Below are positions 5,261-18,198 of a DNA stretch of 53,997 nucleotides, in pieces. Every line of letters starts with the position of its first letter. The first letter of the stretch is position 1. Under the pieces are notes generated by a model that was given only the letters and a program-made list of their open reading frames with translations, had not been told where the DNA came from and did no database searches. Made by a program: the position numbers and the translations under genes. This DNA comes from Actinomycetota bacterium. GTDB lineage: Bacteria; Actinomycetota; Acidimicrobiia; Acidimicrobiales; Ilumatobacteraceae. The stretch is taken from contig JAFMFM010000006.1 of the NCBI GenBank assembly GCA_017856115.1, positions 1 through 53,997 on the forward strand, in the 5' to 3' direction.

Positions 5261-5439
5261 GAGCACACCGTAATGAGTCGTGCCGCCGAGAACATCATCG
5301 ATGCGGATATCGCGGTGTGCCCGAACCGGATTGACGGCGACGAATGACATCGATGCAAGTTTCGGAATCGTAAAAAAGCCAAAAAGGATTCGTTAACGGT
5401 TTGGCGCACTCATGGGACAGCTTCTTATCGTTCTCGCCC

Positions 5440-7761
5440 ATGTCACACCGAAGCAGATCACTCATCGTCGTTACGTCGATTGTCGCTTTGTCGGGGATCT
5501 TCTCCGTGCATCGCGTGACTGCGGATTCGGCTGGCACGTCGGCGACCCAGGCGGATGGGTCGCCGACTCAGATCGCAGCGCTCTCGCGCTACCTCGACGC
5601 TGGTGAGTCGCACACGTGCGTGGTGATAACCGACGGTGGGTTGAAGTGCTTCGGCTCGAATTCCTCCGGACAGATCGGGTCGGGTGGCACCGCGTCGCTG
5701 GGTGACTCGACGGCCGAGATGGGCGACGCGCTCATCTCGGTGAATTTGGGTACGGGCCGCACGGTGCGCGCGGTGTCGACGGGAACCGTGCACACGTGCG
5801 TTCTGCTCGACGATTTAAGCGTGAAGTGTTTTGGTGAGGGAGACAACGGCCGTTTGGGTTACGCAAGTTCCAGCGACATCGGTCGATCGGCGGCGACGAT
5901 GGGCGACGCGCTCGTTGCGGTGGATCTCGGTACGGGTCGGACGGCGCGCGCCATAGCCACGGGTGCCGCACACTCGTGTGCAGCACTCGACGACGGCACC
6001 GTGAAATGTTGGGGCCTGAACGACGATGGACAACTCGGTGTTGGTGACACCGATGCACGCGGCGATGACCCCGGCGAGATGGGTGACGCACTACCCGCAG
6101 TTCAACTGAACCTCGCCGACGGTGTGCGGGTGACCGGCCTCGTCGCGGGCGATGCACATACCTGTGCGCTGTTGTCGACCGGTGCCGTGCAATGTTGGGG
6201 TTCGGGGGCCAACGGACGGTTGGGCAGTGGCGACGAGAACTCCCGCGGCGACGAACCCGGGGAGATGGGAACCTCGCTTACCGCGGTGGATCTTGGATCG
6301 GGTCGCACCGCAAAGGCGTTGGCTGCCGGCGGATCGCACACGTGTGCACTCCGGGACACCAACGACGTGGTGTGTTGGGGAGTTGGCGGTGAAGGACAGT
6401 TAGGTACCGGAGCGCGACTTGATATTGGTGATGCCGCTGGCGAAATGGGGAATGCGCTCACCCCCGTGCCGCTGGGTACCGGGCGAACGGCGCTTGCCCT
6501 GAGCGCAGGTGCGGCACATACCTGTGCGGTGCTCGATGACTTCTCCATGAAGTGTTGGGGCAGTGGTGCAAGTGGTCGTCTCGGAACAGGTGACACCGTG
6601 AGTCGTGGCGACCAGCCCGACGAACTTGGCGACGCGCTGTCGGTGATTGACCTCGGCACCGATGTGTCGACGAGTTCGCCGTATTCGGTGCGTGCAATCG
6701 TGGCCGGCACCGCCCACACCTGCGTGGTACTCGCCACGTTCGCTTTGAAATGTTTTGGATTGGGAACATCCGGTCGTCTCGGCTCCGGCGGCACCTCCAC
6801 GCTGGGTGATGCTGCAGCCGAGATGGGCGACAATCTCCTCGCGGTGGACCTTGGAACCGACCGCCGCGTGATGTCGCTCACCGAACCTGGCCGTGCCGGC
6901 ACACCCACCGGCACGGCCGGGGACGGCTCGGTGTCGCTCACCTGGACGGCACCAACCAGCGATGGTGGCAGCGCAGTCACCGACTATGTCATCGAGTTTT
7001 CGACCGACGGGGATTCCTGGAGCACCTTCGTCGACGAAACATCGGCGGCGACCACTGCGACCGTGACCGGACTCACGAATGCCACCAGTTACGTGTTTCG
7101 GGTGACGGCGCGCAATTCGGTGGCCGATGGTGTGGCATCGAGTGCGAGTGATCGCGTGACGCCAACGACGTCGACCACGACGTCGACCACCACAACGACA
7201 ACGACACTCGCACCAACCACCACCGTGCCAGTGTCATCGGGCGGCAGCGGTGGCGGCGGAGGCGATGCTCCACCACCCACCACGGTGGCACCAACGACCA
7301 CCACCACGCTCGCGCCAATCACCACAACGTCGTCGACGACCATCGCACCAACGACAACGACGATCGCACCGATCACCACGACAACTGCACCGGTCGTTGC
7401 CATACGATCGCTCGTGCTGCGCCCGTTCGCGCCGCTGGTCACCACACTCACCAGTGCGCAACGTCGCCAGATCGTCACGTTTGCGCGCTCGTTGCGAAAC
7501 ACCGACGTGGTCACGTGTGTGGGTGGAGCAGGTACCGGTCCGGTCAAGTTGCTGCGTGATCTCGCCCGCGTGCGCGCGGCGAACGTGTGTCAGCTGCTTG
7601 CCAAGCGGGTTCCAGGAGTACAGGTCACGACCACCGTCGCCATCTCGGGTGAGGTTCAGGTGTCGGATCGAACGTCAACCCAAGCGGCCATCCCGCTTCG
7701 CCTCGCCGCACGCGACTTGTCGCGTCGGGTGTTGGTGGTCGCCCGACCAGGCAGGTTGTGA
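5440..7761 (+). CDS. Secreted RCC1-repeat propeller protein with FN3 and OmpA-like domains
   Basis: A 773-residue exported protein of unknown role. Order: signal peptide (about 1-30); seven RCC1-type repeats (about 45-480), each with an HTC...KCWG or KCFG core; one fibronectin type III domain (about 485-575, LTEPGRAGTPTGTAGDGS onward); a Thr/Pro/Gly-rich linker (about 575-660); and a C-terminal OmpA-like region (about 665-770, with LLRDLARVRAANVCQLLAKR). The repeat cores begin at 5611, 5791, 5971, 6157, 6337, 6517 and 6715, a 60-66 residue period, so seven blades would close one beta-propeller. Each blade has a Cys pair, suggesting one disulfide per blade. The ATG at 5440 is chosen because the signal peptide follows directly; a TTG at 5401 is in frame. 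Probably a cell-surface binding protein anchored by its C-terminal domain. Confidence 0.85.
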   Translation: MSHRSRSLIVVTSIVALSGIFSVHRVTADSAGTSATQADGSPTQIAALSRYLDAGESHTCVVITDGGLKCFGSNSSGQIGSGGTASLGDSTAEMGDALISVNLGTGRTVRAVSTGTVHTCVLLDDLSVKCFGEGDNGRLGYASSSDIGRSAATMGDALVAVDLGTGRTARAIATGAAHSCAALDDGTVKCWGLNDDGQLGVGDTDARGDDPGEMGDALPAVQLNLADGVRVTGLVAGDAHTCALLSTGAVQCWGSGANGRLGSGDENSRGDEPGEMGTSLTAVDLGSGRTAKALAAGGSHTCALRDTNDVVCWGVGGEGQLGTGARLDIGDAAGEMGNALTPVPLGTGRTALALSAGAAHTCAVLDDFSMKCWGSGASGRLGTGDTVSRGDQPDELGDALSVIDLGTDVSTSSPYSVRAIVAGTAHTCVVLATFALKCFGLGTSGRLGSGGTSTLGDAAAEMGDNLLAVDLGTDRRVMSLTEPGRAGTPTGTAGDGSVSLTWTAPTSDGGSAVTDYVIEFSTDGDSWSTFVDETSAATTATVTGLTNATSYVFRVTARNSVADGVASSASDRVTPTTSTTTSTTTTTTTLAPTTTVPVSSGGSGGGGGDAPPPTTVAPTTTTTLAPITTTSSTTIAPTTTTIAPITTTTAPVVAIRSLVLRPFAPLVTTLTSAQRRQIVTFARSLRNTDVVTCVGGAGTGPVKLLRDLARVRAANVCQLLAKRVPGVQVTTTVAISGEVQVSDRTSTQAAIPLRLAARDLSRRVLVVARPGRL

Positions 7762-9721: not shown

Positions 9722-11578
<1,857 letters not shown>

Positions 11579-11671: not shown

Positions 11672-12658
11672 GTGACGACGGTGGAGACCCCTGCACCCCG
11701 CGAGATGACGGTTATCTATAGTCGCGCCGACCGCGTCTTCCGCGGCATCGTCACCGCCGGAGCCCTCACGTCCCTGATTCTGCTCGGACTGATTGCGTCA
11801 TTCCTCGTGTACCGAAGTTCCGGGATATTCCGGGAGTTCGGACTCAAGTTCATAACGGGTACCGAGTGGTTTTCCGACAGCTTCCGGGAGGTTGGAGACG
11901 AAGCTCGTCCCGACAGCAGTGTTTTTTCAATCGGGCCGATGATCGTCGGTTCCGTGGTGGTAGCGACCATTGCCATGCTGATCGCGGTTCCACTGTCAAT
12001 TGGCGGTGCGCTGTACATCGAGTTCTATGCACCGCGCTCGATCTATCGAGTGCTTGTTGCGATGTTGGACCTTGCGGCTGCGATTCCCTCCCTGATTTTC
12101 GGACTGTGGGGTATCGAGATTTTCACCGCATTCGGTGTGCGGTGGGCAACCTTCCTGAATGATCGCCTGGGTTTTCTGCCGATATTTTCTGTTGAGTTCG
12201 AGAATTTCGGTCGCAGTCCGTTTGTAGCCGGCTGTGTTCTGGCGTCACTCGTAGTGCCGATTACGACCTCGGTGGCTCGTGAGGTGTACTCACGGACACC
12301 GCGTGACCTCATTGATACCTGTTATGCACTAGGAGGCAGCAAGTGGGGTGCGATTCGCTCGGTTGTCATGCCCTACGGACGTAGCGGCGTCATCGCCGGT
12401 GCGATGTTGGGTCTCGGCCGTGCACTCGGCGAAACCGTCGCCATTTATCTCATGCTCAACCTGGTGTTCAAGTACTCGTATCAGATTCTGGACTCGACGG
12501 GTGGCAATGTCGCTTCGATGATCGCACTCAAGTTTGGTGAGGCCACCGACAGGGAAATCTCGGCGCTAATTGCTGCCGGGTTGGTGCTGTTCATCATCAC
12601 GCTGATCGTGAACATGGTCGCCTCCAACATCGTGCAACGGACAACGCCACGATCATGA
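11672..12658 (+). CDS. pstC: Phosphate ABC transporter permease PstC
   Basis: Membrane half of the high-affinity phosphate importer. 328 residues with about six transmembrane helices; the first spans about residues 28-50. The permease signature TCYALGGSKWGAIRSVVMPY lies near 215-234, followed by GMLGLGRALGETVAIYLML-like sequence. It starts at a GTG preceded by a G-rich ribosome-binding site. First gene of pstC-pstA-pstB, with a four-base overlap to pstA. The order is unusual because pstS comes last and has its own promoter. Confidence 0.95.
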   Translation: MTTVETPAPREMTVIYSRADRVFRGIVTAGALTSLILLGLIASFLVYRSSGIFREFGLKFITGTEWFSDSFREVGDEARPDSSVFSIGPMIVGSVVVATIAMLIAVPLSIGGALYIEFYAPRSIYRVLVAMLDLAAAIPSLIFGLWGIEIFTAFGVRWATFLNDRLGFLPIFSVEFENFGRSPFVAGCVLASLVVPITTSVAREVYSRTPRDLIDTCYALGGSKWGAIRSVVMPYGRSGVIAGAMLGLGRALGETVAIYLMLNLVFKYSYQILDSTGGNVASMIALKFGEATDREISALIAAGLVLFIITLIVNMVASNIVQRTTPRS

Positions 12659-13764
12659 GCACCGTCGTCCAGTCTCCCGATCAGTCCAAGGTCGAACCGC
12701 AGCGGCCGTGGGCCGTGAAACGTGTCGTTCGCGCCACGAATGGACTCCGACTCGCCGTTTTCGCCGTAATTGCAGCCGGCATCACCCTTGTGACCCCCTT
12801 GGCGAATGCAGATGGCTGGGCATTGGCGTTTCTACTGGTGAACTTGGCTTGGACCTTGGCGACTGCAGCTCGCCTCGGTGCCAAGGAACGTCGAGATGCC
12901 ATCGTGCGGGTAGTGGTGTCGTCATTGGCCTTCCTGGCCTTCGTCCCGTGGCTCTCCATTTTCGTTTCGACGGCGCTGAAGGGATACAAAGGTTTGTATC
13001 CGGGCTACTTGTTCAACGACATGCGAATAACTTCCTATGACGATGAGCTGACGTTTGGAGGAGTCGGTCACGCAGTCGTGGGATCGCTCATCATGGTTGC
13101 CATTGCCACGATTCTCACGCTGCCCCTCGGAATTCTGAGTGGAATTTATCTAACGGAAATACGCGGTCGACTCACCTTCTTGGTTCGATTCATAGTGCAA
13201 TCGATGGCCGGAGTGCCATCGGTGGTGGCTGGATTGTTCATCTTTGCCACCGTGGTGCAGTCCATGGGGAGGTACTCGGGTCTTGCCGGTGGTGTCGCTT
13301 TAGCGGTACTAATGCTTCCCACCGTTTCTCGCACCGCCGAAGAAGTATTGAAGCTGGTCCCCGATGATCTGCGAAGTGCAGGATATGCGCTGGGTGCTCG
13401 CCAATGGCGCACGGCACTCATGGTGGTATTGCCCACGGTACGAGCGGGTCTCACTACGGCGGCAATTCTGGGAGTCGCGCGAGTCATTGGCGAAACGGCA
13501 CCGCTGCTACTCACTTCATTGAACACCAACGGATTCGTGTGGAACCCCATCGGGGGAACACTGGGTTCGCTACCTACGTATATCTTTGCCATGTTTATGT
13601 ACGGATCTGAATATTCCGTCGCTCGTGCATGGTCCGGTTCCATCGTCCTACTGGCTCTCGTACTTTTCTTCTTCCTATTGGCACGGCGGCTCGGTGGACG
13701 TAATGAAAGACGCACAAGAGTAGGTGTTGGTAAGGCAGCGAGTACTTCAGCAGGAACAAAATGA
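12655..13764 (+). CDS. pstA: Phosphate ABC transporter permease PstA
   Basis: Second membrane subunit of the phosphate importer. 369 residues, longer than typical PstA (about 280-300): an N-terminal extension carries two extra hydrophobic segments (about residues 25-70 and 80-105) before the usual six-helix core. Core motifs: [36 protein letters not shown] and [17 protein letters not shown] overlaps at both ends couple it to pstC and pstB. Confidence 0.94.
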
Positions 13765-14609
13765 TGCAAAGGACAATGAACATGACGAATTCAGACCTCG
13801 AAACAACTGGACGAACAAGTGATCCGATGAGTGAAGTCACGTCTTTCCGTGGTCTTGAGACTCGCTCAGTTCATGCCTGGTTCGGCAAACACCATGCACT
13901 TGCAGGAGTCTCCTTGCGTTTCCCCGAGCGAACCGTTACGGGTCTGATAGGTCCATCTGGTTGTGGAAAGTCGACGTTCATTCGTTTGCTCAATCGGATG
14001 CACGAGTTCATTCCATCGGCGGCCATGGCTGGGTCAGTATTGCTCAACGGCTCAGATATCTACGACCCCTCCGAGGATCCGGCAATGATCCGCCTCAAGG
14101 TGGGGATGGTGTTCCAGAAGCCAAATCCGTTTCCGGCCATGAGTATCAGGGAGAATGTCTTGGCGGGTATCAAGCTGGCACATCTCAAGCGTGACAATCA
14201 TGATGACATTGTCGAGCAGTGCCTCACCCGTGCTGGGCTATGGAAAGAAGTAAAGGACCGCCTGGATGCGTCCGGTGGGTCACTCTCTGGTGGTCAACAG
14301 CAGCGACTCTGCATCGCACGTTCTCTGGCAGTGGAGCCACAAGTGCTGCTGATGGACGAGCCGTGCTCCGCACTCGACCCCGGTAGCACGCTGCGAATCG
14401 AGGAGACAATCAAGGAGTTGGCGGAAAAGATCACGGTGATCATCGTGACCCACAACATGCAGCAGGCAAGTCGGGTGAGTGACTTCTGTGCATTCTTCCT
14501 GACCGATGGCGGTCCGGGGTACCTCGTGGAGGCCGACTCAACACGAAAGATGTTCACCAACCCCAGCGACCCGCGAACCGCGGACTACGTGCAGGGCAAG
14601 TTCGGCTGA
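13761..14609 (+). CDS. pstB: Phosphate ABC transporter ATPase PstB
   Basis: ATP-hydrolysing subunit on the cytoplasmic face of PstCA. 282 residues: Walker [20 protein letters not shown] (about 72-90), Q-loop [11 protein letters not shown], signature [17 protein letters not shown], Walker [14 protein letters not shown], and the switch His in [13 protein letters not shown]. The first 30 or so residues are extra and contain several in-frame ATGs (13761, 13764, 13776, 13782, 13827), so the true start may be later. Codon 1 overlaps the pstA stop by four bases. No phoU or phoB/phoR follows in this window. Confidence 0.95.
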
Positions 14610-14611
14610 TC

Positions 14612-14629
14612 GTTCACGTACTGTTCACC
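14612..14629 (+). promoter_or_regulatory. PHO box upstream of pstS
   Basis: GTTCACG at 14612-14618 and GTTCACC at 14623-14629 form a direct repeat with an 11-base period, matching the actinobacterial PHO-box consensus at almost every position. It lies about 95-113 bases upstream of pstS, in the gap after pstB, so pstS is likely to have its own phosphate-starvation promoter. Confidence 0.8.
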
Positions 14630-14724
14630 AATCGGACGCCCTGTAGTCGTTCGATTGCTAGGTGGTAGTCACCCTGCAAACGTAGTTTTCTCCTCGGTAG
14701 TACCACTCACACACAGGAGAAATC

Positions 14725-16077
14725 ATGCAGAAACGATTCAAGCGTTTTGCGGCAGTGGCGATCACTGCTGCGAGCGTACTTTCAAGCGCGTCCATCGCGA
14801 AGGCAGAAGATGTAACGGGTGGCGGAGCATCATTCCCCGTCCAGTTCTTGACCCCGGCGATCGCCGAGTTCAACCGCACATTCGGCCACAACATCACCTA
14901 TACCTCGACAGGTTCTGGAACGGGCAAGCGGAATTTCAAGAGCGGTACGTTCAAGTTCGCAGGCACCGACTCGGCCGTCGGATCGTCCGACACCCCGTCC
15001 TTTGGTTGGAACTACGTTCCGTACCTGGCCGGAGCAATCGGTATCGCGTACCGCTTGGACGAAGTCAAGGGTGCGACAATTTCCCTGAGCCCGCAGACCA
15101 TCAACGGCATCTTCGGTGGCACCATCGAAAAGTGGAATCACCCGAGTATCGCCGCCGACGTCAGGGCGAACCCACCATGGTCGAACACCAAGAAGAAGTC
15201 CGACGTCCGTGGTGCCACTGCATTGTGGCAAAACGTGTCTCGCACCCAGGCAAAAATCACCGTGTCGATGCTGCCCTCCACGCTTAAGTCGAACAGGGGC
15301 AAGAAAATCGAGTGGATTGACGACACCACAAAGAAGGTGTTGAAGACACTTACGGTGGGGACCAAGGCCGAGGTCAATATGACCTCGACAATCAAGCCGA
15401 GTGACACGTTCTCCATAAAGATTGGTGGCAAGACGGTTGCAACCTTCAAGCAAACGCCGGTGAAGCTGCCAGACCGCGCCATCGTGGTGGTGTACCGTGC
15501 AGACACCTCCGGTACCACGAACAACTTCTGCCAGTACATGAAGAATGCGATCAACACGGACTGGGCAATCAACGATGCGTTCACATCGTGTATCCCGGGA
15601 GGTGTTGCACGACTGGGCTCACGTTTTGTTGGTCAGCCACAGAACAACAACCAGGCCAACTACATCGCTGATACCAATGGTGCCATCGGCTATGCGGAAG
15701 TTGCATACATCACCGATCCGCTTCGTGCGTCAAAGGGGATAAAGGCTGCCAATATCCGAAATGCTGCCGGTGCCTACGTTGCGCCAACTGCGGCAGGCTA
15801 CAACTCCCACCTGGCGGGTGGAACGCAAAATGCGTTTGGTTTGATCTCGTTCGACTGGAAGCAGACCACCAATCGCACCGCGTACCCGCTCGGTGCCGTG
15901 ACGTACGGTCTCTGCCAGACGAGCGCTGACGCAAAGAACAAGGTGGTGTCGCAGCTCTTCCAGTGGCTGATCACTGACTTCGGACCAAAGAATGCCGAAG
16001 CCCTCGGCTACACACCAATCTTGAATGCAGCGGCTGCCAAGTCACTCACACTCGCCAAGAAGTGTGGTGCTGGCTGA
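14725..16077 (+). CDS. pstS: Phosphate-binding protein PstS with an inserted segment
   Basis: Extracellular phosphate receptor for PstCAB. 450 residues against about 350 for common PstS. A signal peptide (about 1-27, ending SASIAKA) lacks a lipobox Cys, so the mature protein looks soluble rather than lipid-anchored. Phosphate-site segments: TGGGASFP, YTSTGSGTGKRNF, AGTDSAVGSSD, and YRADTSGTTNNF near 258. Between the usual EKWNHPSIAA (near 135-144) and KLPDRAIVVVYR (near 247) lies an extra stretch of roughly 95 residues (about 150-245) rich in Lys, Thr and Val and predicted to be beta. An AGGAG ribosome-binding site precedes the ATG. It has its own PHO box and a strong terminator. Confidence 0.94.
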   Translation: MQKRFKRFAAVAITAASVLSSASIAKAEDVTGGGASFPVQFLTPAIAEFNRTFGHNITYTSTGSGTGKRNFKSGTFKFAGTDSAVGSSDTPSFGWNYVPYLAGAIGIAYRLDEVKGATISLSPQTINGIFGGTIEKWNHPSIAADVRANPPWSNTKKKSDVRGATALWQNVSRTQAKITVSMLPSTLKSNRGKKIEWIDDTTKKVLKTLTVGTKAEVNMTSTIKPSDTFSIKIGGKTVATFKQTPVKLPDRAIVVVYRADTSGTTNNFCQYMKNAINTDWAINDAFTSCIPGGVARLGSRFVGQPQNNNQANYIADTNGAIGYAEVAYITDPLRASKGIKAANIRNAAGAYVAPTAAGYNSHLAGGTQNAFGLISFDWKQTTNRTAYPLGAVTYGLCQTSADAKNKVVSQLFQWLITDFGPKNAEALGYTPILNAAAAKSLTLAKKCGAG

Positions 16078-16115
16078 TTCCAAGTAGTACCTCGCCCCCC
16101 CGCGAGGTTGAGATG

Positions 16116-16144
16116 GGCCCCGGGCATGAGCCCGGGGCCTTTTT
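16116..16144 (+). terminator. Rho-independent terminator after pstS
   Basis: Perfect ten-base arms GGCCCCGGGC (16116-16125) and GCCCGGGGCC (16130-16139), loop ATGA, then five T. It ends the pst message before the convergent aquaporin gene. Confidence 0.93.
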
Positions 16145-16161: not shown

Positions 16162-16815
16162 TCAACTGCGCAAGAACTTCAGGAGTGGCAGTGCCGCAAG
16201 AAGTCCGAGAAGTTGCATCACGATGAACATCGGTACCGACTCGGGGGCGATTCCCGCAAACGAGTCGCTGAATGCTCGGGCGATGGTGACCGAAGGATTG
16301 GCCAGCGAGGTGGACGACGTAAACCAATAAGCACCACCAATCCACACGCCAACGGCAAGTGGAACGGACTCGGCTCGATGTTTACCGATGAGGAAGATGA
16401 CCAGCAATAGGCCGAGAGTTGCCATGGCTTCGCCCAGCCAGATACCGGCGCCATCTCGCACTTTGTTTGATGGTCCGAGAATGTCGAGATCGAACATCAG
16501 GTTGGCAATTGCAGCGCCGATGACGCCACCGAAGGTCTGGGCGGCGAAGTACGGCACCACATCGCGCCACGTTCGTCTATTGAGTACGCAATCAGCGATC
16601 GTGACCACGGGGTTGAAATGTGCCCCGGAAATCGGGCCGAACATCATGATGAGCGCAATGAGAGCACCGACGGTGGCGCCAGCGTTGGCCAGAAGTTGCA
16701 ATGCCACATCGTCGGTGAGATTCGTTGCCATGATCCCTGAACCGACCACCGAGACGATGAGAAGACCCGTTCCGACGCTTTCGGCGATGAGTCGCCGTGA
16801 GAGAGTTGGGGTCAT
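16162..16815 (-). CDS. aqpS: Aquaporin/glycerol-facilitator family channel, probably arsenite efflux
   Basis: A 217-residue MIP-family channel with six membrane helices and two half-helix motifs: NPV at 68-70 (AHFNPVVT) and NPS at 173-175 (LANPSVT), both departing from canonical NPA. Its gene overlaps arsC by four bases and is the last of arsRC-arsC-aqp. No ArsB or Acr3 pump is present, so by analogy with AqpS of Sinorhizobium meliloti it probably lets arsenite, made by the reductase, flow out of the cell. Family is secure; substrate is inferred from the operon. Confidence 0.85.
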   Translation of the reverse strand: MTPTLSRRLIAESVGTGLLIVSVVGSGIMATNLTDDVALQLLANAGATVGALIALIMMFGPISGAHFNPVVTIADCVLNRRTWRDVVPYFAAQTFGGVIGAAIANLMFDLDILGPSNKVRDGAGIWLGEAMATLGLLLVIFLIGKHRAESVPLAVGVWIGGAYWFTSSTSLANPSVTIARAFSDSFAGIAPESVPMFIVMQLLGLLAALPLLKFLRS

Positions 16816-17447
16816 CGGATGCTGACTCCGAGGTCGGAGATGAGGCTCTCAACACGTCGACGAATCTCGTCTCGAATCGGACGCACCGCCTCCACGCCCA
16901 GGCCCGCCGGATCGTCGAGCGCCCAATCTTCGTAGCGCTTGCCGGGGAAGATTGGACACGTGTCGCCGCAACCCATGGTGATGACCACATCGGCCGCCTG
17001 CACGATCTCCACCGCGAATGGTTTGGGGAACTCGTTGGCGATGTCGATGCCGACCTCCTGCATGGCTGCAACGGCGGCCACGTTGAGGTCCTTACCCGGT
17101 AGTGAGCCGCCCGAATACACCTCGATCTTGCCCTTGGAGAGGTGGCGAACCCAGCCCGCCGCCATCTGCGAACGTCCGGCATTGTGCACGCACACGAACA
17201 ACACCGAAGGTGGAGCATCGGTAATGAGCCCCCGCACCTTTGCCATGGCACGCAAGCGATCGTCGGCGTAACGAGTGGTGAAAACTGCGACGAATGTGCG
17301 AACCTTTGCGTCCGAGAAACTCTCGTACGACTCCCGAACGATGGGTCGAATCTCCGCCTCGTCGAACTTTCCCGCGTACTTGCGTGCGAGTTGACTCACG
17401 GCGTGCTCGATGACCTCGTTTTCCTCAGTGGGGGTGTAGAGGCTCAT
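16812..17447 (-). CDS. arsC: Arsenate reductase, LMW-phosphatase fold with N-terminal helical domain
   Basis: Reduces arsenate to arsenite. 211 residues: residues 1-75 form a helical domain also seen in some actinobacterial ArsC, and residues 80-205 the low-molecular-weight phosphatase fold with P-loop Cys86 to Arg92 (CVHNAGRS) and the segment GCGDTCPIFPGKRYEDW, then DDPAG with the general-acid Asp. Whether the electron donor is mycothiol/mycoredoxin or thioredoxin cannot be told. It starts three bases after the arsR fusion gene ends and overlaps the aquaporin start by four bases. Confidence 0.9.
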   Translation of the reverse strand: MSLYTPTEENEVIEHAVSQLARKYAGKFDEAEIRPIVRESYESFSDAKVRTFVAVFTTRYADDRLRAMAKVRGLITDAPPSVLFVCVHNAGRSQMAAGWVRHLSKGKIEVYSGGSLPGKDLNVAAVAAMQEVGIDIANEFPKPFAVEIVQAADVVITMGCGDTCPIFPGKRYEDWALDDPAGLGVEAVRPIRDEIRRRVESLISDLGVSIR

Positions 17448-17450
17448 GGG

Positions 17451-18122
17451 CTATTCCTCTCTTGGATGGGTTGATGTTGAAAACATCGTGATGCGTTCGT
17501 GCAGGGTGGTGAAGGTGTCGTTGAAGGCCCGCATGGTGCCCACCTCGGCGGGGTCGGTAACCGACCAGTGCAGGCGACGCAGCGATGCCGGCAGCTCGTC
17601 GTGTGCTTGATCGCACACGGTGATGATGGTGGTCGACGGTTTGATCCTGCCCAGTCGGCGTGGTCGGGTGGTTCGCAGATCAAGCCCGTGGTGCTCGGCC
17701 ACTTCGATGGCCGATGGGTGCACTCGATCAGCCGGCCGTGTACCCGCCGAACTGGCCTTGCGCCCGGTGAGGTGACGCCACAGGGCCGCGGCGAGTTGTG
17801 AGCGGGCCGAGTTGTGCGTGCACACGAAAGTGACTTCGCGTGGAACCTCGTGAGCGGCGAGCATCGTGCGATGTTGCGGTAGGAGTCGGACGAATCGTTT
17901 GCGCCCATCCGCGTGCGAATTGGTTCGCTCGATGAGACCTGCATGTTCCAACACGTCGAGGTGATGAGCCAAGAGTGCAGACGACAGCTCGAATTTTTCG
18001 ATGAGCTCGCCGGGTGTCCGATCTGAACGCGAGAGCTCTTCGGCAATCTCTAACCGGCGAGGGTCGCCTAGGGCGGCAAAGACGTTGGCACGACGCTGGA
18101 GACTGCTTCGTGGTGTGGTCAT
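17451..18122 (-). CDS. ArsR-type repressor fused to an LMW-phosphatase/ArsC-like domain
   Basis: A 223-residue two-domain protein. Residues 8-82 are a winged helix-turn-helix of the ArsR type (ALGDPRRLEIAEELS, recognition region LSSALLAHHLDVLEHAGLIE). Residues 95-212 are a phosphatase-fold domain with P-loop Cys101 to Arg107 (CTHNSARS), a second Cys at 170 (TVCDQAHDE) and likely general-acid Asp190 (TDPAEVG). The DNA-binding half contains no cysteine, so it lacks the classic arsenic site; the only cysteines are in the fused enzyme domain. It is the first gene of the ars operon, has a GTAGGAG ribosome-binding site, and sits beside a perfect inverted repeat that is probably its own operator. 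Confidence 0.88.
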   Translation of the reverse strand: MTTPRSSLQRRANVFAALGDPRRLEIAEELSRSDRTPGELIEKFELSSALLAHHLDVLEHAGLIERTNSHADGRKRFVRLLPQHRTMLAAHEVPREVTFVCTHNSARSQLAAALWRHLTGRKASSAGTRPADRVHPSAIEVAEHHGLDLRTTRPRRLGRIKPSTTIITVCDQAHDELPASLRRLHWSVTDPAEVGTMRAFNDTFTTLHERITMFSTSTHPREE

Positions 18123-18135
18123 GCTCCTACCTTAG

Positions 18136-18159
18136 GTCTCTCAAACAATGTTGAGAGAC
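18136..18159 (-). promoter_or_regulatory. Inverted repeat, probable operator of the ars operon
   Basis: Perfect nine-base arms GTCTCTCAA (18136-18144) and TTGAGAGAC (18151-18159) with a six-base spacer, 13 bases before the start of the ArsR-fusion gene. The size and position fit a dimeric winged-helix repressor controlling its own operon. Confidence 0.75.
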
Positions 18160-18198
18160 TTTGTGCGGTGAATTTCAGGTGAACTCGGAGGTGGCCAT

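Follow-up and report, generated by a model that had tools for sequence, protein, structure and literature searches.

A cysteine-free ArsR-type winged helix fused to an ArsC-fold domain as a candidate arsenate receptor in Actinomycetota

The window, that is, the whole stretch of 53,997 nucleotides analysed here, encodes an ArsR-type winged helix joined in one reading frame to a domain of the ArsC fold, and the question raised by this locus is what such a protein would sense, and with which of its halves. A sequence-only reading of the DNA had pointed out that the winged-helix part (residues 1–82) is free of cysteine and that Cys101 and Cys170 are the only cysteines of the protein. The translation confirmed both points, with no cysteine in residues 1–100 of the 223-residue fusion, in a numbering that depends on the chosen start codon. 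As(III)-type cysteines, of the form CxC or CC-x6-C within or beside the winged helix, are thus absent from residues 1–100. The features discussed below are collected in Table 1.

Table 1. Features of the fusion locus, in window coordinates
Feature	Coordinates	Strand	Basis
Fusion of an ArsR-type winged helix and an LMW-phosphatase/ArsC-fold domain, 223 aa, one reading frame	17451..18122	-	Pfam, translation
Cysteine-free DNA-binding half, residues 1–82	17877..18122	-	HTH_5, cysteine positions, AlphaFold helices/strands
ArsC/LMW-PTP-fold half, residues 96–216	17475..17837	-	LMWPc; 123 residues aligned with 1lk0 by VIA-align, Z 19.0
Cys101 codon, P-loop nucleophile (C-x5-R-S)	17820..17822	-	77/77 fusions
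Cys170 codon, counterpart of pI258 ArsC Cys82	17613..17615	-	76/77 fusions; alignment
Leu177 codon, at the pI258 Cys89 position	17592..17594	-	Cys in only 2/77 fusions
ArsC encoded apart from the fusion, with an N-terminal domain of three helices; Cys86, Cys160, Cys164	16812..17447	-	Translation, profile matches
MIP/aquaporin-family channel, putatively AqpS-like	16162..16815	-	Pfam MIP, 91.8 bits
Stem resembling a terminator, between pstS and the ars operon	16115..16140		Weak: 2 found vs 2.2 expected in shuffles
pstC, pstA, pstB, pstS, convergent with the ars operon	11672..16077	+	Profile matches
Mycoredoxin-like gene directly before pstC, possible reductant	11339..11563	+	TIGR02200 over cut-off
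Candidate ArsR-type operator, GTCTCTCAA-N6-TTGAGAGAC	18136..18159		Perfect repeat; conserved upstream
PHO-box-like 11-nt direct repeat, GTTCACC-N4-ATTCACC	18167..18184	-	Pattern scan; consensus of PMC6988585
Second PHO-box-like repeat, upstream of pstS	14612..14629	+	Pattern scan

Anatomy of the fusion protein and its operon

The HTH_5 model of Pfam matched residues 20–65 at 37.4 bits (cut-off 22) and LMWPc matched residues 97–212 at 56.1 bits (cut-off 23.2), while the NCBIfam models NF033788 and TIGR02691 scored 52 bits, slightly under the cut-off of 55, and 45.2 bits against a cut-off of 174.3, respectively. The protein thus has the ArsR-type winged helix of ArsR/SmtB regulators, with HTH_5 over its cut-off, and the C-x5-R-S P-loop and D-P acid loop of the LMW-PTP/ArsC superfamily. 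The set of three catalytic cysteines of thioredoxin-coupled ArsC (10, 82 and 89) is incomplete in it, since the third position is Leu177. In an AlphaFold model of moderate quality (mean pLDDT 77, pTM 0.59, built on six sequences), the predicted winged helix reaches residue 80, with helices between residues 7 and 60 and wing strands at 64–68 and 76–80, and is followed by a short helix at 82–88 and by the phosphatase/ArsC fold from residue 96.

The enzyme half resembles the structures of the Staphylococcus aureus pI258 arsenate reductase (1lk0, 1ljl and 1jf8; Foldseek E about 1e-7, VIA-align Z about 19), with which it shares the fold, the P-loop and equivalents of Cys10 and Cys82. The VIA-align rows span mainly residues 91–220, and the DNA-binding half was assessed by its sequence and by Foldseek matches, 8qkf and 1r1u among them. 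The top VIA-align match, level with other ArsC entries and second by Foldseek E-value, was 1lk0, a structure of the C89L mutant of pI258 ArsC in a disulfide intermediate state; in the alignment, its Leu89 pairs with Leu177 of the fusion. Whereas pI258 ArsC is a standalone protein with Cys89, the window fusion has the leucine and a DNA-binding half.

A separate three-cysteine ArsC begins three bases after the fusion stop codon, and its cysteines have the same spacing as C88, C162 and C166 of Cg_ArsC1' (PMC6514093). The fusion, arsC and aquaporin-family genes follow one another in that order, nearly without gaps. The aquaporin-family gene had no NCBIfam equivalog over the cut-off, and its product is likely an arsenite exit. 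Searches of the host assembly, which is 95% complete, returned no match for ACR3 and none for ArsB, and the channel is the only arsenite exit visible there. HTH_5 matched one protein in the same assembly, the fusion itself, and this sole HTH_5 regulator is the one with the cysteine-free DNA-binding half. In the convergent pst cluster, pstC and pstA scored over the cut-off, and pstB (338.8 against 343.2) and pstS (160.5 against 205) below it. With the mycoredoxin-like gene, a possible thiol reductant is encoded next to the phosphate transporter that adjoins the ars operon. Elsewhere in the window, at 5401–7761 (+), a large predicted protein contains repeated 'HTC...CWG...G.LG' units, which resemble propeller repeats of the RCC1 type.

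Conserved cysteines and regulated genes in actinobacterial fusions

Genome scans detected close orthologues in Ilumatobacteraceae and in other Actinomycetota MAGs, and an alignment search gave matches at E <= 1e-35 in 52 of 396 Actinomycetota genomes. Within the genus, 6 of the 12 other genomes had a match (one of them partial, at a contig end), and none was found in two genomes of at least 90% completeness (G003 and G006); the fusion gene is accessory in its genus. For comparison, we used 77 proteins, namely those of 76 loci and the window protein, with no identical proteins among them. Three duplicates (L150–L152, of L005, L003 and L004) were removed before counting, L037 (Nonomuraea) stood outside the analysis, L045 and L046 are not fusions, and partial matches at contig ends were unused.

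Cys101, Arg107, Ser108, Asp171, Trp186 and Pro191 proved invariant in all 77 fusions, Cys170 and Asn104 were each kept in 76, and 74 have Asp190. The winged-helix half contains a cysteine in only 12 of the 77, at scattered positions, and only one protein had two. A cysteine-free ArsR-type helix is unremarkable alone, and what is notable is the strict retention of Cys101 and Cys170. Column 177, the place of the third catalytic cysteine of pI258 ArsC, is occupied by cysteine in only two fusions and lacks it in the other 75. The second and third cysteines are found together in 2 of 77 fused domains, in contrast to 52 of the 53 ArsC proteins encoded no more than 4.5 kb downstream in the same orientation. 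Cys89 is the residue needed for thioredoxin-coupled turnover of ArsC, with which the titles of the PDB entries agree. Since the residues for anion binding and for the first step are kept and the column-177 cysteine is lost, the fused domain is without the residue for thioredoxin-coupled turnover and, judged by this pattern, looks more like a reductase turned receptor than a working reductase.

The proposal of the sequence-only reading that repressor and reductase are merged in one protein has thus become doubtful, with leucine at the Cys89 position, no cysteine there in 75 of 77 fusions and a separate three-cysteine ArsC adjoining. Its fuller form, in which the repressor is also a working arsenate reductase that depends on mycothiol/mycoredoxin, as other actinobacterial ArsCs do, and the inducing signal acts elsewhere, would agree with the retained P-loop and Asp-Pro loop, with the mycoredoxin-like gene at 11339–11563 and with the three ArsC cysteines of nearly all alphaproteobacterial fusions (32 of 33), but a complete ArsC lies next door here, an ArsC stands downstream in 53 of 76 loci, and the fusion shows no further site that could act as the sensor, so that we regard such a bifunctional protein as improbable. 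A switch operated by peroxide or disulfide stress, which would oxidise the Cys101–Cys170 pair and derepress the operon, is very unlikely: the pair is conserved and a redox-sensing ArsR relative, RexT, is known (PMC8960804), yet the anion-binding residues and the arsenic and phosphate genes around the fusions would be left unexplained. Among individual members, the divergent L135 retains the P-loop cysteine, has serine at the Cys170 position and has no arsenic gene recognised nearby, and the 395-residue frame of L088 extends the fusion by a cysteine-rich C-terminus (Cys 249–325).

We then compared the genes that the fusions would control. A same-strand ArsC was present within 4.5 kb downstream in 53 of the 76 loci, and the remaining ones were classed as gapdh-arsJ (9), pstS (3), aquaporin without these (3) and none recognised (8). 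The first gene recognised downstream was most often ArsC (34 of 76 loci); only seed matches count as recognised here, and an unknown gene may therefore intervene. ACR3 was downstream in six loci and first in none. In either orientation, ACR3 was found in 11 loci; in seven of them a separate ArsR was found no farther than 3 kb away, always with a CxC site (7/7), and in the other four none was recognised by a search whose seeds are of the CxC type, so that other ArsR types could be missed. As a control, 30 canonical ArsRs were picked by similarity to one ACR3-adjacent ArsR, 29 of them with the CxC site, and the first recognised gene in their short loci (2.8–3.4 kb) was ACR3 in four, MIP in three, ArsC in two and none in 21. 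ACR3 as first recognised gene thus occurred in 0 of 76 fusion loci versus 4 of 30 control loci (Fisher p 0.0055, a guide only, because the sequences are related and the control loci shorter). Since ArsC and aquaporin genes also stand behind canonical ArsRs, the context distinguishes the two kinds only on ACR3, and the idea that fusions can be told from canonical ArsRs by their neighbouring genes alone was rejected. At three loci (L039, on a Mycobacterium lentiflavum plasmid, L085 and L086), pstS comes directly after the fusion, as though arsenic were the inducer of a phosphate-binding protein, and ArsC is either unrecognised there or lies farther away (L086, at about 4.5 kb).

These genes bear on whether arsenite, the product of ArsC, could be the inducer, as it is for ordinary ars operons, either by bridging Cys101 and Cys170 or by sitting on Cys101 in the P-loop and so releasing the repressor. 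Both cysteines are conserved, a complex of pI258 ArsC with arsenite exists (1lju, by its entry title), so the P-loop could hold arsenite too, and the CC-x6-C arsenite triad is kept in 21 of 33 alphaproteobacterial fusions; as ArsC makes arsenite and is the commonest first recognised gene, an arsenite signal would also be useful. We nevertheless consider an arsenite sensor unlikely, since the gapdh-arsJ and pstS targets act on the pentavalent oxyanion or on phosphate, and since the retention of Asp190 and of the whole P-loop, including Arg107, would go unexplained. In addition, opening an aquaporin in response to arsenite would be risky in a genome with no ACR3 or ArsB match, because the channel would also admit arsenite. 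The earlier suggestion that the enzyme domain is the sensor, through arsenate in its P-loop or arsenite at the two cysteines, accordingly gained support from the conserved cysteine pair and from the neighbouring genes, and of its two options arsenate fits the regulated-gene context better than arsenite. Indeed, the cysteine-free DNA-binding half, the conserved enzyme cysteines and recognised neighbours that mostly handle arsenate or phosphate together make the enzyme half the likely sensor.

Operator palindrome and PHO-box-like repeats

The perfect inverted repeat that had been noticed before the gene was found again at 18136–18159, 13 bases before the fusion start codon. Perfect repeats with 9-bp arms occur at nine sites in the 54-kb window, so that the notion of a palindrome notable by itself was dropped, and its significance comes from position and conservation, not from arm length. 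The core TCAA-N6-TTGA, which we take to be the operator motif of the ArsR/SmtB type, occurs once in the window. Upstream of the fusions, 69 of 76 loci have it with no more than one mismatch, 41 of them exactly, versus 2.7% (0.2% exact) of mononucleotide shuffles, and the arms lengthen to CTCTCAA/TTGAGAG in the nearest relatives. The locus thus has, at the sequence level, the palindromic promoter operator of ArsR/SmtB regulators as a predicted operator; a sigma-70 promoter scan gave no match.

Seven bases from this operator lies the first of the two PHO-box-like repeats. In Streptomyces, PHO boxes are 11-nt direct repeats with a conserved GTTCACC (PMC6988585), and the repeat here consists of two 11-nt units with this core, one exact and one with a single change (ATTCACC). 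The pattern GTTCACCNNNNRTTCACC, a strict pattern widened after the site had already been seen to allow A at one position, has one perfect match in the whole assembly, which is 18167–18184, and four matches with one mismatch, including 14612–14629 before pstS, and its reversed control has no match in the assembly. Under the strict pattern, these two sites have one mismatch each and are the two best in the window, which also holds three sites at two mismatches and eight at three (4.6 expected). Mononucleotide shuffles gave none at one mismatch or fewer and 0.1 per window at two, figures that understate chance, given the extra real sites at two to three mismatches. The site is kept with one or two mismatches to the strict pattern in L003–L006, L139 and L140 and is absent upstream in L007, and with up to three mismatches it was found in 11 of 76 fusion loci versus 19 of 1580 random stretches. 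A search of the genome for PhoP/PhoB returned nine TIGR02154 matches, none over the equivalog cut-off, and the regulator of the site is therefore only putative. The repeat suggests that phosphate starvation also drives the fusion operon, in which case starvation would both raise Pst-mediated arsenate entry and switch the operon on.

Genes of the pst system neighbour the fusion here, in Rhodococcus erythropolis PR4 and in M. lentiflavum. Together with the PHO-box-like repeats before the fusion and pstS, this could be read as a P-loop that senses inorganic phosphate, through which the operon, and perhaps pst as well, would follow the supply of phosphate. We give such a phosphate sensor very little credence, since the operon encodes arsenate handling and phosphate gives no reason for the retention of Cys170; furthermore, TCAA-N6-TTGA occurs once in the window, so that pst is not an obvious direct target.

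Related fusions and the proposed arsenate receptor

Longer fusions, mostly of 270–310 residues, are found on plasmids and in genomes of Alphaproteobacteria, and their ArsC domains are similar to unfused ArsC proteins of Alphaproteobacteria. We counted 33 distinct ones, excluding L195, L196, L198 and L201, which are separate ArsR and ArsC proteins, and treating L049 as the same Tistrella locus as L186. The three ArsC cysteines are kept in all except L212, and 24 of the 33 head gapdh-arsJ, a pathway that acts on As(V) without reduction (PMC5930303). The CC-x6-C arsenite triad is present in 21, only its CC in five, and neither in seven; gapdh-arsJ is headed by 13, four and all seven of these, respectively. 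A link between triad loss and gapdh-arsJ operons, first apparent in nine plasmid fusions, was not significant in the 33 (p 0.075 and 0.107), and this 'natural experiment' was rejected as proof. In the alignment, the enzyme half of the window protein starts where the alphaproteobacterial fusions carry the triad, and this position, the sole cysteines and the full anion pocket again mark the enzyme half as the likely sensor.

In a tree of ArsC domains from 66 hand-chosen rows (25 actinobacterial fusions and the window protein, 21 alphaproteobacterial fusions and 19 standalone proteins), rooted only for drawing and with one very long row (L135), at least two changes were forced for each fusion group. 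The tree is consistent with more than one origin of the fusion and may also reflect an old fusion that was later split. The ArsC parts of three actinobacterial fusions (L136, L137 and L138) fall on the alphaproteobacterial side, and the third cysteine is retained in two of them, a hint that they arose separately or were transferred.

From the anatomy, the conservation, the candidate operator, the gene context and the assembly without ACR3, ArsB or second HTH_5 matches, we infer the DNA binding, the ligand, the direction of the response, the disulfide and its reset as follows. At somewhat better than even odds, the protein is an autoregulated repressor of the fusion–arsC–aquaporin operon, with an enzyme half that was formerly a reductase and now serves as an arsenate effector domain. 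The N-terminal winged helix would bind the 18136–18159 palindrome, presumably as a dimer, and arsenate would bind in the Cys101 P-loop and release the repressor. Simple binding cannot separate arsenate from abundant phosphate, whereas a first catalytic step open only to arsenate would. In the step that we prefer, Cys101 would be arsenylated and attacked by Cys170, so that arsenite leaves and a Cys101–Cys170 disulfide forms; phosphate fits the P-loop yet cannot be reduced, and chemistry would thus discriminate between the two. Without a relay cysteine of the Cys89 type, the disulfide state would persist until reset by mycothiol/mycoredoxin or thioredoxin. By analogy with 1lk0, the disulfide intermediate of the C89L mutant, the missing counterpart of Cys89 suggests that the pair is possibly such a latch. 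Extended to the family, the scenario is tentative: a widespread actinobacterial group would descend from a reductase made into a single-turnover receptor, in which arsenate, not phosphate, drives a Cys101–Cys170 disulfide trapped by relay loss, the latch would open an operon that is also induced by phosphate starvation, and the similar alphaproteobacterial fusion would have arisen apparently independently, for arsenate export by way of GAPDH–ArsJ.

The fusion architecture has been published before, in the actinobacterial clusters C4 and C7 (PMC6514093), which have the same two domains as the protein described here and to which it belongs by that architecture; the R. erythropolis PR4 fusion RER_RS00775, within the locus range of that paper, is 43% identical to the window protein. 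The available parts of PMC6514093 propose no sensing mechanism, relay-cysteine loss or PHO-box link. ArsR–ArsC fusions have also been noted in L. ferriphilum, Microbacterium and Sinorhizobium (PMC6205960), where, in the text available, an advantage was suggested for arsenite sensing and/or detoxification, not for arsenate sensing. Other regulators approach the present case from different sides. The ArsR-family repressor TtSmtB of Thermus thermophilus reportedly responds better to arsenate than to arsenite, but it is unfused and has three cysteines (10, 62 and 64) in the ArsR protein (PMC5658604). As(V) sensing was suggested for the ArsR of the Vibrio cholerae var operon, which has a C-to-A change in its As(III) motif and controls a GAPDH gene and arsJ, whereas the phosphatase VarH is a separate, unfused protein of the dual-specificity type (PMC9601151). 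In ArsRM of Brevundimonas sp. M20 a regulator is merged with an arsenic enzyme, as here, but the link there is to arsenite methylation and not to an ArsC fold (PMC10190100). A fused ArsC domain as arsenate sensor was proposed nowhere that we found in the open-access literature, subscription papers being mostly outside the scope of the search. We thus rate the architecture as already known, and the combination of relay-cysteine loss, a cysteine-free DNA-binding half and a PHO-box-like site as a new variant.

Arsenate and phosphate have nearly the same shape and charge, and cells contain far more phosphate, so that direct arsenate sensing is a real problem of discrimination. If the proposal is true, a receptor that uses redox chemistry instead of fit would solve it, and would offer a possible route to the induction of gapdh-arsJ operons, which make no arsenite. 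It would also provide an arsenate-specific part for biosensors, for which the current ArsR parts mostly read arsenite.
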